58,488 nt of DNA. It comes from Synergistaceae bacterium (GTDB lineage: Bacteria > Synergistota > Synergistia > Synergistales > Synergistaceae). The DNA is taken from positions 1-58,488 of the forward strand of contig JAIRWR010000130.1 in assembly GCA_031268885.1 (NCBI GenBank), written 5' to 3'. The position numbers and the translations under genes are program-made. The notes beneath the pieces were generated by a model, which was given only the letters and a program-made list of their open reading frames with translations, was not told the origin of the DNA and ran no database searches. Positions 5,773 to 21,271 of this stretch are shown here, in pieces (the stretch's first letter is position 1; every line of letters begins with the position of its first letter).

Positions 5773-6981
5773 TTGAAGAGGTCTCTTGTCAGTATTTTGA
5801 TAACCGGCGCTCTCTTTTTGACTGTCTTCAGCTCCGCGTCAGACGGCGCGCGGCAAGGTGGCGGCAGCCTCTCCGCCGGCGCTGTGAATGGGCTTGCGGC
5901 GAAGCTGTACGGCAAGCTCGCGGCGCGGGGCGAAAACCTGTGCTTCTCTCCATACAGCGTCTCGTTAGCGTTTGCCATGACATACGCCGGCGCGGCCGGT
6001 GAGACGGCGGCCGAGTTGAGTGACGTGTTCGGGTTTGGAGAGGGCATACACCAGTCCAATGAGATTCTCACGCGGAACATTCTGGGCGCTCCGGAGGATG
6101 CGGGCGAACTCGTCGTGGCAAACTCAATCTGGCCCCGCAAGGGATTCAAGATGCTTGATCCTTTTGTAAGAATACTTGACGAAAACTACAAGGCCGAAAT
6201 ACGGCCTCAGGACTTTAAAAACAACCCCGGCGCCGCCAAAAACAGGATAAACGAGTGGACGGAGAGCAGAACGAAGGGTAAGATTCGTGATCTGATCGCG
6301 GATGGCGCGCTCGATGCCAATACGGCGATGGTATTGGCTAACGGCGTTTATTTCAAGGCGAGATGGTTGTCGCCCTTTTTAAAGGAGACGACTGAGACCG
6401 CGGAATTTTACACAGATACCGGGGTTGTCTCCCAGGCTCAGATTATGAAGAACACCGGGGCATACGAGTACTTCGAGAACGGCATGATTCAAGCCGTAAA
6501 GGTTCCGTATCTGAGGGGAGCTTACTCCATGACGCTGATACTGCCGAAGGAACGCGGGGGAATAAACGCGCTGGAGGAGGCCTTTGTCTCTGGGAACTTG
6601 AATATCTCGATGAATGACACGGAGCGAAGGAGAGTGGAGCTGTCAGTCCCGAGGTTCAAAATAGAGAGCAAGTTCAGCTTGAATAAAACAATCGGCGAGC
6701 TAGGAGCGCCCGCCGCGTTTAATCCCTCCTCGGCCGACTTCTCCGGGATAAACGGCGAAAGGGATCTCTTTATAAGCGACGCGATACACGCCGCGTTTGT
6801 AAATGTTGACGAAGATGGGACAGAGGCCGCCGGCGCGACAGCAATCGCCATAAGCCGCTCATCGGCGATGCTTGATACTGCCGATCCAGTGATATTCCGC
6901 GCGGATCACCCCTTTTTGTTCACCATCAGAGATGAAATGAGCGGAACTATCCTGTTTATGGGGAAGTTGGCGCGTCCTTAG
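5773..6981 (+). CDS. secreted serpin (serine/cysteine protease inhibitor)
   Basis: A TTG start follows the ribosome site GGAGG (5761-5765). After a signal peptide (residues ~1-25), the ~375-residue body has the serpin fold signatures: FSPYSVSLAFAMTYAGA near the N-terminus, VLANGVYFKARW, the NTGAYEYFEN strand, and the C-terminal FRADHPFLFTIRD. The reactive loop hinge DGTEAAGATAIAI has the small-residue pattern of inhibitory serpins that can insert into sheet A. Counting from the hinge puts the scissile bond near Arg-Ser-Ser-Ala (SRSSAM), suggesting a trypsin-like or small-residue-cleaving target, which is inference. It follows a protease gene and converges with the LRR protein gene 7 bases away. 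Confidence 0.9.
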   Translation: MKRSLVSILITGALFLTVFSSASDGARQGGGSLSAGAVNGLAAKLYGKLAARGENLCFSPYSVSLAFAMTYAGAAGETAAELSDVFGFGEGIHQSNEILTRNILGAPEDAGELVVANSIWPRKGFKMLDPFVRILDENYKAEIRPQDFKNNPGAAKNRINEWTESRTKGKIRDLIADGALDANTAMVLANGVYFKARWLSPFLKETTETAEFYTDTGVVSQAQIMKNTGAYEYFENGMIQAVKVPYLRGAYSMTLILPKERGGINALEEAFVSGNLNISMNDTERRRVELSVPRFKIESKFSLNKTIGELGAPAAFNPSSADFSGINGERDLFISDAIHAAFVNVDEDGTEAAGATAIAISRSSAMLDTADPVIFRADHPFLFTIRDEMSGTILFMGKLARP

Positions 6982-6988
6982 GCTTTGC

Positions 6989-9900
6989 TCACTTTCCGGG
7001 CGAGCTGTTGCTGTCGCCGCAGCCGCCCGAACCGCTTCCGTTCGAACCGTTGCCGGGAGCGCCGCCAGAACTTCCCGTCTTGCTTCTTCCGCCGTCTCCC
7101 TTATTTCCACCATTGGACAACTGATTGTTCTCTCTCCCGGTTCTGCCGTCGGGGCCTCGGATGCCCTCAATCACGCCCGCGCCCTGAGTCGTAGTCTCTG
7201 TGATTATGTCAACCCTCCCGGTTATCGGGTCTGTGACCTCGACTGAGCTTACCGTTACCGAGTCCTGTACCAGCGTCATCGAAAAGCTCTCCTTGCTGTC
7301 GGTGTTCGTGTGCGTGACATAGCTGGCATCGCTCAGCTCTTCCACCGTCACGCGCTCGTATCTCTCAGTAACCTCGACGAACAGCGTCGTGCCCCTTATG
7401 CCTATCGAACTCTTAGGGGTGGTCAGCTTGAATCCTCTCGGGTTGAATTTGACTATCGCTCCGGTTATCACCCTGACAACTCCGTGAACCAGGCCGACAT
7501 TGAAGCGGTTTCTCTCGCTGCTGAAGACCAGCTCTTTGATGTCGATCCTGGCGCCGCTCCCCATCTCCAGTATAGAGTCGTCCAGAAAACGAATCACCGC
7601 GGAACCGGTCGGATCGGTCTCTAAGATGTCATACTCGTATATATTGGACCCGGCCACGAGGTCTACTCTCGCCATGTCCCGCGTGGCAGAGAGGCTGCCC
7701 TCCACGGTCTCAACATGCCCCTTGGGCTCATCGTTGTCGGCAAAGACCGCGGACTCGCATGAAGCTGCCCATGACAGAATCGAAACAGAAATAAGCAGCA
7801 GTATGGTAAAAAGACGCCTCAGCCGCGGATTGCTCTTTCTGATGAGTGCGGCAATGAAAACCACCGCCAGGGCCGCCGCTCCTCCATTACAGCCTCCGCC
7901 GCCGCTGTTGCCTCCGCCCTCCAGCGAGTTATCTCCAGGAGCGAATCCGTCCTTCCATCGGTTCAGCCATATTGGGTCCACTATCGAGTTGTCGTTCGAT
8001 CCGTCGGGGACTATGAGATAACTCCCGCTCTCGTACGCCTCAAGGAGAGTGTCGTCTAAGACGTAATATGACAGGGTAATATCGAGCGCGCTCCCACCAG
8101 TTATCTCCAGTATACCGAGTTCAATTGCCCTCTGAGGAGTCAGTATCCCATCCACCAGACGGGTATACCAGCCCGTCCGTTCTCCCTGGTGAATCTCCTT
8201 CTGTATTACGTAGTACTTGAATATGTCGTCGAGGTGATCACGCGGATTCGCCAGTATCTGGGAGGCCATGGATGATCCCAGCGCGCTCGCCAGGTCGTCG
8301 AAGTTCACCGTCACTCTGTATGTCATGGGCACTATGCCCTTCCTGCCGGAGGAGACCGCGCGAGATATATCGATTGTTACGTCAGCGGCGTCCTTTCCCG
8401 TAGGGACATAGCAGTCAGGCAGCTTGGATCCGTCCGGCTTACGCACGTAGATGTCCGCGTTGTCGAGATTATTGACAAACTGCCAGTCGGAGGGGAGGTC
8501 TTTCATGGGTTGCTGTGTGTTGCCCGGCAGAATCACGATCTCGCTGGATATGAGCTGTCTATTAGCCTCCTCGAAGCTCTCCACTACAGGGTCTGTTATT
8601 GCCAAGGATGTCGGGAGGTCGTCGGCCACCACGAGAACTTTCTCCGCGCTCTTACTGACAGTTGAGCCGTCGGAGAGTGTCTGAGAAGCCTCGAAACCGA
8701 TCAGAGCCTTGCCGTATATCGAGCCCAGGGGGGCAGCGCGAGAGGCGGATGCCCTCGGTTCCTGCGGCAGCGCTGTTATCCGGACGCTGTACGGCGAGAG
8801 GACATCGGCGCTCACGAGCGCGGCGCTCTGGGCGTCAAACAGCACTCTGATATTCGGCGCTGGGCTCGGAGACGAGCCGTCCGCAGTAGCGTATGTCACG
8901 GTGATGGCAAAGCTGCCGCCGGGCGCTAATGTCAGCGGAAAGCCGGAGATCTCGATGGACTCCGCGGCCAGGTCACCGGAACCCGGCGTCCACTTAGCGT
9001 AGAGCGTGATGCCGGACGTCACCGTGTCGGTGGGAAAATTCCAGACGTTTTCGTAGGCTGATTCCTTGTACCAGCCGCCGAATGAATAGCCTGCTTTGGT
9101 CGGAGGCGCCGGGGCGGTTATCGTCGAGCCGGATGTCACGTTCGGAAGCGACGCCACCGCGCTGCCTCCCTGGGAGTCGAACGTGACGGTGAAGGTCGCC
9201 GTCCATTTCGCATAGAGCGTAATATTTGCCGTCACCGTGTCCGTGGAAAAATCCCACTCGTTGACACAGGCTGATTCCTTGTACCAGCCGCCGAATGAAT
9301 AGCCTGCTTTGGTCGGAGGCGCCGGGGCGGTTATCGTCGAGCCGGATGTTACATTAGGAAGCGACGCCACCGCGCTGCCTCCCTGAGAGTCGAATGTGAC
9401 GGTGAAATCCGGTAGCGGCGCGGTCGTAACGGTCAGGCTTATGGATGCCGTGAGAAACGGCGTTACTGTCCCAAACGTAATCTTCGCGCGGTAGCTACCG
9501 CTGTCCGACGCGCTGGCGCCGCTTTTGGAATAAGTCCTGCTCACGGCTCCGCTCAAGGGCGTCCAAGATCCCGGGCTCGTCTCCCTCTCCCATTGATACG
9601 ACGCTCCGGCAATCTCCATGCACGAAAACGATATGCTCTCCCCGGTTGATACGGTCGTCGAGCCCGTCGGAGTGATGGAGCCGTCGGACATTGTGATTTT
9701 AGAGCCTGCCGGCGGCGTCCACATCGCATATGAAGACGTGTCCGGCACCAGAAAGATCAGGTCGCTCGCTGTACCATCGAAAGCGTAGGAAGAAATAACT
9801 GGCGGCGAAGCTGGCGACATCGCGACGGACTTGAGCGAGGCGCAATCTTTAAACGCTTCGGAGCCGATATCCGTCAGAGCCGGCGGTATCGCTATGGCCG

Positions 9901-10666
9901 CGAGCGAGGTACAGCCTTCAAACGCCTTATAGCCGATAACGGTCGGAACCGTACAAGAGGACATATCCAGCTGTGTCAGGCTCTTGCAACCAAAAAACTC
10001 ATAAACGTCAATTGAGATCACTCCGGCCGGAAGACTCGTCAGCGCCAGGCTTTCACAATTGTAAAACGCGCTGCTGCCAAGCGTGATCAATCCGGTTGGA
10101 AGGCTCGTCAGCGCCAGGCTTGTACAACTGTCAAACGCGGCGTCGCCAATTGAGATCAATCCAGGCGGCAGGTCTATCGACGTCAGGCCTGCGCAACCGC
10201 TGAACGCGATATTGCCAATCGAGGTCAATCCGGGTGGCAGGTCTATCGACGTCAGGCCTGCGCAACCGTCAAACGCATAATCCGGCAGAGCGGTTATAGG
10301 CACTCCCGATATGTCTATCGTCACTATCGAACTCAAAGTTCTGACGGACGAGAAATCCGTATCGTCCATGGCTGTCCCGCTCACGGTCAGAGACGTGATA
10401 TCCGCGGAAACATCGCCCGATAACATAGTCGTTATCACAGTGCCAAGATCCCCGGTCGCAAAAGTGTCGATGACCATATTAGGGCGGATCCACGAGTTTG
10501 CGGCCAAGGCAAAGGGCGCGCGGAGAAAGACAGCCGCGAATATCAGTGAGAAGAAGACGAAAGACCGGAAGGATAAATTTGTAATGGATGGAAGTTTATG
10601 TCTGTGTGTCCGCGAAGTTGTCTCTGCCGCTGAATTTTGAGCATTGGAAAGAATCACTATTACCAT
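6989..10666 (-). CDS. large surface protein: LRR + Ig + InlB repeats + internal Synergist-CTERM-like signal, fused to a FecR domain
   Basis: 1225 residues by the longest start. Signal peptide at about 33-55 (FRSFVFFSLIFAAVF...ALA). Residues ~125-300 hold BspA-type leucine-rich repeats (LPxGLxSIGxxAF). An Ig-like domain follows (~310-410). Two InlB/Flg_new repeats (TITAPAPPTKAGYSFGGWY) lie at ~415-560, then a long region shared with the second paralog. At ~917-940 comes GGGGCNGGAAAL, a hydrophobic stretch and basic residues, which is a complete C-terminal sorting signal; yet the frame continues with a second hydrophobic segment (LFTILLLISV) and a FecR domain (~985-1100, SSIGIRGTTLFV) ending in a Gly/Ser/Asn-rich tail. 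A GTG at 10657 is an alternative start. Confidence 0.8.
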   Translation of the reverse strand: MVIVILSNAQNSAAETTSRTHRHKLPSITNLSFRSFVFFSLIFAAVFLRAPFALAANSWIRPNMVIDTFATGDLGTVITTMLSGDVSADITSLTVSGTAMDDTDFSSVRTLSSIVTIDISGVPITALPDYAFDGCAGLTSIDLPPGLTSIGNIAFSGCAGLTSIDLPPGLISIGDAAFDSCTSLALTSLPTGLITLGSSAFYNCESLALTSLPAGVISIDVYEFFGCKSLTQLDMSSCTVPTVIGYKAFEGCTSLAAIAIPPALTDIGSEAFKDCASLKSVAMSPASPPVISSYAFDGTASDLIFLVPDTSSYAMWTPPAGSKITMSDGSITPTGSTTVSTGESISFSCMEIAGASYQWERETSPGSWTPLSGAVSRTYSKSGASASDSGSYRAKITFGTVTPFLTASISLTVTTAPLPDFTVTFDSQGGSAVASLPNVTSGSTITAPAPPTKAGYSFGGWYKESACVNEWDFSTDTVTANITLYAKWTATFTVTFDSQGGSAVASLPNVTSGSTITAPAPPTKAGYSFGGWYKESAYENVWNFPTDTVTSGITLYAKWTPGSGDLAAESIEISGFPLTLAPGGSFAITVTYATADGSSPSPAPNIRVLFDAQSAALVSADVLSPYSVRITALPQEPRASASRAAPLGSIYGKALIGFEASQTLSDGSTVSKSAEKVLVVADDLPTSLAITDPVVESFEEANRQLISSEIVILPGNTQQPMKDLPSDWQFVNNLDNADIYVRKPDGSKLPDCYVPTGKDAADVTIDISRAVSSGRKGIVPMTYRVTVNFDDLASALGSSMASQILANPRDHLDDIFKYYVIQKEIHQGERTGWYTRLVDGILTPQRAIELGILEITGGSALDITLSYYVLDDTLLEAYESGSYLIVPDGSNDNSIVDPIWLNRWKDGFAPGDNSLEGGGNSGGGGCNGGAAALAVVFIAALIRKSNPRLRRLFTILLLISVSILSWAASCESAVFADNDEPKGHVETVEGSLSATRDMARVDLVAGSNIYEYDILETDPTGSAVIRFLDDSILEMGSGARIDIKELVFSSERNRFNVGLVHGVVRVITGAIVKFNPRGFKLTTPKSSIGIRGTTLFVEVTERYERVTVEELSDASYVTHTNTDSKESFSMTLVQDSVTVSSVEVTDPITGRVDIITETTTQGAGVIEGIRGPDGRTGRENNQLSNGGNKGDGGRSKTGSSGGAPGNGSNGSGSGGCGDSNSSPGK
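8985..9411 (-). repeat. tandem 213-bp repeat (two InlB-type modules)
   Basis: Two nearly identical units with a period of 213 bases (71 codons) lie inside the surface protein; for example the same GGCTGATTCCTTGTACCAGC begins at 9056 and 9269. Each encodes one InlB B-repeat (Listeria-Bacteroides repeat). The few base differences indicate recent duplication. Confidence 0.8.
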
Positions 10667-18257: not shown

Positions 18258-18296
18258 TACATAAAACAACGTCGCGCCCTTTATGCTTATGGCGCT
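18258..18296 (-). pseudogene. short remnant of a FecR domain behind the second LRR protein
   Basis: Immediately after the stop of the second LRR protein, in another frame, the minus strand encodes SAISIKGATLFYV. This lines up residue by residue with SSIGIRGTTLFVEV of the FecR part of the first LRR protein, and most bases of the first ten codons agree. About 250 residues that lie between CTERM and this motif in the first copy are missing here. Confidence 0.5.
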
Positions 18297-21271
18297 CAAC
18301 GCCTCATCAGCGAATCGCTCTTTATGGCGATGGCAGCAATGAAAAGTGTCATCAAGACCGCCGCTCCACCATTACAGCCCCCGCCTCCTCCATCTCCGCC
18401 CTCAAGCGAGTTGTCATCTGGCGCTGCGCCATCCTTCCACCGGTTTAGCCATATCGGGTCTACTATCAAGTTGTCGTTCAATCCGTCTGGGACTATCAGA
18501 TAACCTCCGCTCTCGTATGTTTCCAGAATGGAGTCGTCCAGAATATAATACGATAGAGTCATGTCAAGCGCGCTTCCTCCGGTTATGTCTAGTATGCCGA
18601 GTTCAATTGCCCTTTGCGGGGTCAGTATTCCGTCCACCAGGCGAGTGTACCAGCCCGTCCGTTCTCCCTGTTGGATCTCCTTTTGTATGACGTAGAACCC
18701 GAATATCTCGTCGAGATGGTTATACGGGTCTGCCAGTATCTGGGAGGCCATGGATGAGCCCAGCGCGTTCGCCAGGTCATCGGCGCTCATCGTCACCCTG
18801 TACGTCATGGGCACTATGCCATTCTTTCCGGGGGGCACGACACGAGATATGTCGATCACTATGTCAGCGGCGGCCTTTCCAGTAGGAGCGTAGCAGTCCG
18901 GCAGCTTGGACCCATCAGGCTCGCGCACGTAGATGTCAATGTTGTCGAGGCTGCCAACAGACTGCCAGTTGGAGGGGAGGTCTGTCATGGGCTGTTGGGT
19001 GTTGCCCGGGAGGATCACTATCCCGCTGGAGATAAGTTGTCTGTTAGCCTCCTGGAATCCCTCCGTCACCGGGGTTGTTATCTTTAAGGAGGTCGGGAGG
19101 CCGTCAGCCACAACGAGAGTCCTCTCCATACCCATCCGGACGGTCGAACCGTCGGAGAGTATCTGAGTTGCCTCGAAGCTGATCAGCGCCTCCCCATATA
19201 TCGAAGCTGTGGGAGCGGCGCGAAAGGCTGACGCCCTCGGCTCCTGAGGCAGCGCGATTATTCGCGCGCTGTACGAGGAGAGGATATCGACCCTCACGAG
19301 CGCGGCGCTCCGGGCATCCAGCGACACTCCGATATTCGGTACGGGGCTCGGAGGCGAGCCGTCCGCCGTAGTGTAGGTCACGGTGGCAGTAAAGCTGTTG
19401 CCGGGCGCCAATGTCAGCGGAAAGCCGGAGATCTCCATGGATTCGGCGGCCAGGCCGCCAGAGTCGGTATCAGGCGTCCAATTGGCATAGAGCGTGATGT
19501 CGGACGTCACCGTGTCTGTGGAAAAATTCCAGGCGTTGTTACATGCCGCTTCCTTGTACCAGCCTACGAATGAATATCCGGCTTGGGTCGGAACCGTCGG
19601 GGCGGTTATCGTCGAACCAGGCGTGGCTGTCGCCGCCGCCACAGCGCTTCCTCCTCGCGAGTCGAACGTTATGGTGTATGTTGGCGTCGGCACAACCGTC
19701 ACAGTCAAGCTTATGGGCGCTGTGTGAAACGGTGTTATTGCCCCGAACGTGATACTTGCCCGGTAGCTGCCGCTATCCGATACGGCCGCGTTGTTCTTTA
19801 AATAAGTTACGCTCGCGGCTCCGGCCAAGATCGTCCAAACTCCAGGACTTATCTCCTTCTGCCACTGATACGACGCTCCGACGATCTCCGCGCACGAAAA
19901 TGATATGTTCCCTCCTGCTGTGACAACCGTCGAGCCTGTCGGAGTGATAGAGCCGTCGGATATTGTGATTTTAGATCCCACCGGCGGCGTCCACGATGTA
20001 TATAAAACCGTGTCTGGCACTAGAAAAACTAGGCTGCTCGCTACGCCTGAGAAAGCATCGGACGCAATGGTTGTTGGTAAAACTGGCGGCATCGCGACGA
20101 CTTCGAGAAAGTAACAATCTTCAAACGCGTTGGAGCTGATCATCGTCAGAGACGTACAGGAGGACATATCCAGCCATGTCAGGCTCGCGCAATCGTAAAA
20201 CGCGTAGTCGCCGATCGAAGTCACTCCGGCAGGCAGATCTGTCAGCGCTAAGTTCGCGCAATCGTAGAACGCGTAGTCGCCGATCAGAGTTACTCCGGCA
20301 GGCAGATTCGTCAGCGTTAAGTTCGTGCAGTTGACAAACGCATGGCTGCCGATCGAGGTCACTCCGGACGGCAGACTCGTCAGCGCTAAGTTCGCGCAGT
20401 TGACAAACGCGGCATCTCCAATCGAGGTCAATCCGGCGGGCAGGGTCGTTAACGCTAGGTTAACGCAATCGTAAAACGCGTAGTCGCCGATCGAAGTTAC
20501 TCCAGCAGGCAGATTCGTCAGCGCTAGATTCGCGCAGTTGTTAAACGTACCAAAGCCAATCGAGGTCACTCCGGCAGGTAGACTCGTCAGCGCTAGGTTC
20601 GTGCAGTTGTCAAACGTACCAAAGCCAATTGAGATCACTCCGGCGGGTAGACTCGTCAACGCTAAGTTCACGCAGTTGGCAAACGCGGAATCGCCGATCG
20701 AGTTCACTCCGGCAGGCAGACTCGTCAGCGCTAAGTTCCCGCAGAAGCTAAACGCGTCGTTGCCGATCGAAGTCACCCCGGCAGGCAGGCTTGTCAGCGC
20801 TAAGTTCCCGCAGAAGCTAAACGCATAGTCGCCGATTGAGGTTAATCCGGCAGGCAGGGTCACGTATTGGAGATTGTTCAAATCATAGAACGCGTAGTCT
20901 GGCAGAGCGGTTATAGTCACTCCCGATATGTCTATCGTCTCTATTGAACTCAGATTATCTGTGATAAACGTAAAATCCGCACCGTCCATGACAGCCCCGC
21001 TCACTGTAATAGAGGTTATGTCGGTATACGGACTGTCGCCTATTACGCCGGCAATGGCAGTACTCAGGCTGCCGGTCGAAAAGTTGTCGATGACCATATT
21101 AGGGCTGTTCCACGAGTTTGATGCCCAGGCAGATGGCGCATAGATGAATACAGCCGCGAATATCATCGCGAAAAAGACTAAAAATCGGAAGGATAATAAA
21201 TTTACAGAGAGGGACTTGGTTCTCTCCATCCTCGTACTCTGCCGTCGAATTTTGAGCATCGGTAAAAACAA
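18296..21271 (-). CDS. surface protein paralog: LRR + Ig + InlB repeat + C-terminal Synergist-CTERM-like signal
   Basis: 991 residues, paralogous over its length to the protein at 6989-10666. The signal peptide (LVFFAMIFAAVFIYAPSAWA) is followed by at least ten BspA-type leucine-rich repeats of 23 residues (LPAGVTSIGDYAFYDC), against four or five in the first copy. An Ig-like domain, one InlB repeat and the long conserved region (PGNTQQPM, QGERTGWYTRLVDGILTP) come next. The C-terminus is GGGGGCNGGAAV, a hydrophobic stretch, then LMRR and stop, the expected arrangement for a sorting signal. The start is uncertain (TTG 21271, ATG 21259 or ATG 21229). BspA-type proteins usually act in adhesion, and this one is exported and surface-anchored by inference. 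Confidence 0.8.
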   Translation of the reverse strand: MFLPMLKIRRQSTRMERTKSLSVNLLSFRFLVFFAMIFAAVFIYAPSAWASNSWNSPNMVIDNFSTGSLSTAIAGVIGDSPYTDITSITVSGAVMDGADFTFITDNLSSIETIDISGVTITALPDYAFYDLNNLQYVTLPAGLTSIGDYAFSFCGNLALTSLPAGVTSIGNDAFSFCGNLALTSLPAGVNSIGDSAFANCVNLALTSLPAGVISIGFGTFDNCTNLALTSLPAGVTSIGFGTFNNCANLALTNLPAGVTSIGDYAFYDCVNLALTTLPAGLTSIGDAAFVNCANLALTSLPSGVTSIGSHAFVNCTNLTLTNLPAGVTLIGDYAFYDCANLALTDLPAGVTSIGDYAFYDCASLTWLDMSSCTSLTMISSNAFEDCYFLEVVAMPPVLPTTIASDAFSGVASSLVFLVPDTVLYTSWTPPVGSKITISDGSITPTGSTVVTAGGNISFSCAEIVGASYQWQKEISPGVWTILAGAASVTYLKNNAAVSDSGSYRASITFGAITPFHTAPISLTVTVVPTPTYTITFDSRGGSAVAAATATPGSTITAPTVPTQAGYSFVGWYKEAACNNAWNFSTDTVTSDITLYANWTPDTDSGGLAAESMEISGFPLTLAPGNSFTATVTYTTADGSPPSPVPNIGVSLDARSAALVRVDILSSYSARIIALPQEPRASAFRAAPTASIYGEALISFEATQILSDGSTVRMGMERTLVVADGLPTSLKITTPVTEGFQEANRQLISSGIVILPGNTQQPMTDLPSNWQSVGSLDNIDIYVREPDGSKLPDCYAPTGKAAADIVIDISRVVPPGKNGIVPMTYRVTMSADDLANALGSSMASQILADPYNHLDEIFGFYVIQKEIQQGERTGWYTRLVDGILTPQRAIELGILDITGGSALDMTLSYYILDDSILETYESGGYLIVPDGLNDNLIVDPIWLNRWKDGAAPDDNSLEGGDGGGGGCNGGAAVLMTLFIAAIAIKSDSLMRR
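20195..20885 (-). repeat. array of about ten 69-bp leucine-rich-repeat units
   Basis: Each unit of 69 bases encodes one 23-residue repeat of the LPAGVTSIG..AF..C.NLALT type. Neighbouring units are very similar at DNA level, so the array is likely to change in copy number by slippage or recombination. Confidence 0.8.

Follow-up and report, generated by a model that had tools for sequence, protein, structure and literature searches.

Two proteins in which a complete tripartite sorting tag lies in the middle of the open reading frame (ORF) have been published. HVO_0405 from Haloferax volcanii, a substrate of the archaeosortase ArtA, is the strain-specific product of two previously independent genes that have fused, and its internal tripartite tag has been found experimentally to be cleaved via the archaeosortase pathway (PMC7157517). 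MXAN_5598 from Myxococcus xanthus is a probable two-gene fusion with an internal MYXO-CTERM, for which processing has only been proposed, with reference to Navarre and Schneewind 1994 and Abdul Halim 2017 (PMC11980579). We describe here a fused gene in a 58,488-nt stretch of Synergistaceae DNA (contig JAIRWR010000130.1, referred to as the window) which also has a complete tripartite tag mid-ORF and which belongs to this class because the internal tags of HVO_0405 and MXAN_5598 are published cases of gene fusion. The initial annotation of this DNA had considered the layout to be undescribed, and in this it was mistaken.

The HVO_0405 protein differs in being archaeal and a Tat substrate, in having other domains, and in depending on ArtA rather than on a glutamic CPBP protease, and while its cleavage has been shown, that of the window's protein is predicted from sequence. 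MXAN_5598 is closer in that it also combines an adhesin-like N-terminal part with a central Cys-type tag of the myxosortase/CPBP group, but C-terminally it has an outer-membrane barrel with an OmpA domain where the window's protein has FecR. The tag itself resembles those of the Synerg-CTERM/MrtS system in its Gly-Cys motif, hydrophobic stretch and basic residues and in the presence of MrtS in the same genome, but differs in being internal and in matching TIGR04564 under the cut-off; a literature search of limited scope found no experimental work on Synerg-CTERM/MrtS. The C-terminal part resembles PF04773 proteins in having the domain over the cut-off and in having full-length relatives with a signal peptide and a similar tail, but here FecR is not encoded by a gene of its own and does not lie beside the phosphoesterase and cyclase found with some of these relatives.

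The fused ORF (6989..10666, minus strand, as are its parts and the paralog described below) starts with ATG and encodes a protein of 1225 amino acids which reads, in order, signal peptide, LRR_5 repeats, InlB-type repeats, Synerg-CTERM-like tag, second signal-like helix and FecR. The N-terminal signal peptide (residues about 33–56; 10499..10570) was located from a hydropathy peak and the sequence, and is followed by LRR_5 (BspA-type) repeats and then two Flg_new / InlB B-type repeats identified by Pfam (residues about 123–561; 8984..10300). The Gly-rich tag motif GGGGCNGG (residues 922–929; 7880..7903) contains the invariant cysteine, Cys926, and overlaps the hydrophobic stretch AAALAVVFIAALI (residues 928–942; 7841..7885), which is the highest hydropathy peak of the whole protein, with the second signal-like helix (residues 952–966) and the N-terminal signal peptide making up the top three. 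Between the two internal helices is the basic cluster RKSNPRLRR (residues 943–951; 7814..7840), which is both the fusion joint and a predicted cytoplasmic loop, and the sequence at the joint reads AATCCGCGGCTGAGGCGTCTT (within 7780–7860). The former FecR signal peptide LFTILLLISVSILSWAASCESAVFA, followed by DNDEPKG across the predicted cleavage site, occupies 7739..7813, the FecR domain PF04773 covers residues 1014–1108 (7343..7627; Pfam), and the C-terminal tail GCGDSNSSPGK (6992..7024) aligns with the similar tails of related FecR proteins. No stop codon separates the tag from the second helix and FecR domain, and the ORF list, Pfam and hydropathy bear out the ORF, tag, second hydrophobic segment and FecR domain as first annotated, with the tag placed at residues 922–951 rather than at about 917–945. 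We note that a serpin-like gene, judged by eye, lies at 5773–6981 and is convergent to the fused ORF.

A lineage-specific HMM was made for scoring the tag, with 17 other Synergistaceae tails as its source, and the tag matched this with 20.3 bits (E 5e-5 in a database of 2004 sequences), compared with a best score of 7.7 bits for the shuffled tag region (n = 2000). The NCBI model TIGR04564 gave 15.4 bits, which is under its cut-off of 22.5; the paralog at 18296 is likewise sub-threshold (16.8 bits), and four other proteins of the same genome pass. The protease assigned to Synerg-CTERM systems by NCBIfam is MrtS (NF040589), which is present in the window's genome (G000:C11; 205 bits against a cut-off of 130) and in 8/8 of the relatives checked. 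The other clear tag-bearing proteins of this genome end 24–41 amino acids past the motif, and only the fused protein continues, with 302 amino acids from the motif to the C-terminus, so that the tag is not at the extreme C-terminus.

The FecR domain match (36.6 bits) is above the Pfam gathering cut-off of 24, and the FecR half consists of 277 codons without an internal stop. Pairwise dN/dS values against a related genome, G001, which blend pre-fusion and post-fusion time, are 0.24 for the FecR domain, 0.44 for the signal region and 0.63 for the tail; in this comparison the domain sites are constrained, more so than those of the signal region and tail. The signal region carries both a signal-peptidase-I-like site, VFA^DN, and a lipobox-like AASC. 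An AlphaFold model of this half had a mean pLDDT of 66.7, and Foldseek found no match to it at E <= 0.001, with a weak resemblance to the PupR C-terminal signalling domain (probability 0.99, E 0.18), and a sequence search of solved structures with the FecR alignment also found no match. The top Foldseek match of the model (7822–6992) was 5ix9 (66 columns, probability 1.00, E 0.011), described as a cell surface anchoring domain, which is a weak hint from a predicted structure that the FecR part may have an anchoring role. We also note that the tails of related Synergistaceae FecR proteins read roughly [GC]C-x-[DN]-[NS]-x-SPG-[KR] behind a Gly/Ser/Asp-rich linker, with one Cys invariant across the 8 aligned sequences.

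The origin of the fusion could be seen in the relatives, whose loci were found in contigs with an alignment query, a single-sequence query having given no match. In G001 (Im510_bin11), which belongs to the same genus, the tag gene and fecR are adjacent yet separate, with the joint reading RKRAPWRRG TAG, then GC, and then the fecR start ATG AGG CGT TTT CTG, preceded by the Shine-Dalgarno sequence GGAGGAGGGG (duplex −12.6 kcal/mol). In G075/Cd354_bin13, which represents another genus of the Synergistaceae, the tag protein belongs to the same protein family and has GVRR as its last residues, with a TGA that overlaps the fecR GTG (GTGA), and downstream of fecR lie a calcineurin-like phosphoesterase and a CHASE2 cyclase. 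As a tightly coupled tag-protein/fecR pair is present in two genera, the window carries the derived, fused state. Taking the 14 nt AGGAGGGGCTAGGC, which contain the Shine-Dalgarno and stop, out of the G001 joint yields EVRKRAPWMRRFLAIPLI in one frame, which matches the window's LIRKSNPRLRRLFTILLL column by column, and VRKRAPWMRRFLAIPLI, obtained from G001 by this removal, has the same frame and register as the window's IRKSNPRLRRLFTILLL. The FecR halves also come out as sisters in a tree (support 99/100). We regard it as well supported by these sequence comparisons that two formerly separate, translationally coupled genes, one for a Synerg-CTERM-tagged LRR/InlB-repeat surface protein and one for a secreted FecR protein, have truly become joined in frame; in this event a deletion of about 14 nt would have taken out the Shine-Dalgarno and stop, bringing fecR into frame, with the old fecR ATG turning into CTG afterwards. 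The initial annotation had raised the possibility that the halves were fused when a stop and a start were lost, which this directly supports, and had held that an independent FecR start in close relatives would count against its reading; such a start exists, but it reveals the source of the fusion instead.

Among the FecR matches in 53 genomes of the family no other lay in a tag-bearing ORF (open frames of 119–465 amino acids), no further fused copy was found among the relatives' contig loci checked, and the junction DNA was not found in viral contigs; as far as we have seen, the fusion event is specific to the window's species. In some relatives fecR and the CHASE2 cyclase adjoin, and in the window's genome and G001 the cyclase lies on a different contig. 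We note further that in Cd354_bin13 the tag protein, fecR, calcineurin-like phosphoesterase and CHASE2-cyclase gene form a four-gene block (L093:1894-8582), and that the neighbours of fecR look similar in three other Synergistaceae loci (L043, L045 and L047). G001 has two very similar tag-protein copies, on C181 and C182 (L042 and L041), one followed by fecR and the other not, which is also the pattern in the window's genome; both run into a contig end at an identical codon, where a repeat probably broke the assembly. The ‘MRR’ ending the C181 copy was considered as a fecR remnant and rejected, as its aligned counterpart in the C182 copy is RKR and the likeness to fecR reflects convergence.

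The paralog of the N-terminal part (18296..21271) reads through the same ATGAGGCGT as the fusion and then stops, as had been annotated, with its end AGC GAT TCG CTG ATG AGG CGT TGA aligning with AGC AAT CCG CGG CTG AGG CGT in the fusion. It is apparently not an intact comparator, however, and looks to have arisen by deletion from the same two-part cassette, as a probable fecR remnant lies right after its MRR codons (approximately 18265..18298; SAISIKGATLF compared with SSIGIRGTTLF, a motif kept in all FecR relatives aligned). This 33-nt stretch, which was first spotted by eye and only afterwards scored by local alignment with a null, is identical to the fecR DNA for SSIGIRGTTLF at 26/33 positions. 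Scores at this level were reached by 23/30,000 random 120-mers from the window, all from a single place among the matches listed, and by 9/20,000 Markov shuffles; when the region past the paralog was compared with fecR by BLAST, no significant remnant emerged. The fused copy and paralog group together in a separate tree with moderate support (84/87), and dS between them is about 0.7–1.0. On this evidence the fused frame probably predates the duplication, after which one copy would have lost most of fecR by deletion and the other the ATG, and if so the FecR frame has been retained for a long time.

We consider it reasonably likely that the fused coupled pair is translated as one chain and that the resulting membrane hairpin is cut by MrtS and signal peptidase, with the whole translation, membrane topology and both cuts being predictions from the protein sequence. 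The N-terminal part would cross via Sec, the tag helix would halt transfer with RKSNPRLRR remaining cytoplasmic, and the former FecR signal peptide would re-enter the membrane, giving a hairpin of two helices whose flanking large domains both lie outside the cytoplasm. Helix 1 would run out-to-in and helix 2 in-to-out by the positive-inside rule, with the nine-residue basic loop inside, and the fusion would therefore be topologically harmless. MrtS would process the tag near Cys926, with the surface protein becoming anchored, and signal peptidase would cut past the second helix (VFA^DN) to free FecR, or alternatively the second cut might fall before Cys970 if FecR is treated as a lipoprotein. 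A separate FecR could plausibly be released, given that the genome has MrtS and that the tag is followed by a second segment resembling a signal peptide, and processing would leave two ordinary mature proteins in a fixed 1:1 ratio, as from separate genes. Against this model, the helix of the tag is short, and a joint within a chain may not behave like two free ends. More tentatively, the gene may encode a two-product polyprotein, in which cutting of the tag helix by MrtS and of the second helix by signal peptidase gives an adhesin-like protein and FecR in 1:1 ratio that work together.

FecR might instead still be made mainly on its own from an internal start, with the read-through fusion being incidental, which we think unlikely. 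The initial annotation reported no start codon between the halves, and it is the case that there is no ATG, GTG or TTG from the basic cluster of the tag to the FecR domain, but an in-frame CTG (Leu949; 7820..7822, CTG7822) lies exactly at the position of the G001 fecR ATG and would give a well-formed signal peptide, MRRLFTILLL..., and an in-frame GTG (GTG7864) lies within the hydrophobic stretch of the tag. CTG is a rare start codon, and the Shine-Dalgarno pairing at CTG7822 is only −2.1 kcal/mol, whereas G001 has −12.6 and the ATG or GTG starts of FecR relatives nearly all have about −8 to −14.5; there is also no upstream stop for coupled re-initiation. GTG7864 has −8.4 kcal/mol of anti-Shine-Dalgarno pairing upstream, but a start here is also unlikely because this apparent Shine-Dalgarno is provided by the tag's own Gly-Gly-Ala codons some 14 nt off, and the start would sit inside the tag helix. 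No terminator was found between the halves, and a search there for an independent fecR promoter gave no excess beyond chance.

The locus might also be broken or drifting, translated yet miscut, with one or both halves losing function; the apparent loss of fecR from the paralog and the fast divergence of the signal region and tail fit with this, but we judge it rather improbable given the constraint on the FecR domain, the uninterrupted 277 codons with an intact C-terminal motif, and the long retention of the frame if the fusion predates the duplication. It is very improbable that a sequencing or assembly error erased the stop and start. The assembly is a draft (metagenome-type) of 136 contigs and no second genome of the species was found, and the fusion is known from one genome, but an error would have had to change the stop, Shine-Dalgarno and ATG consistently, and the paralog has an independent yet matching in-frame junction, CTGATGAGGCGT.

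If the fused coupled pair is indeed translated and cut as a single chain, internal-tag fusions, which are known from an archaeon and a myxobacterium, would extend to the Synerg-CTERM/MrtS system. Cutting at an internal tag produces a large shift in protein size, and the fusion would therefore be a convenient natural reporter of MrtS activity, much as HVO_0405 has served for archaeosortase. The fusion also illustrates how two coupled genes can be joined without much damage where a sorting tag and a signal peptide stand back to back, and it points to the tagged surface protein and FecR as likely functional partners.
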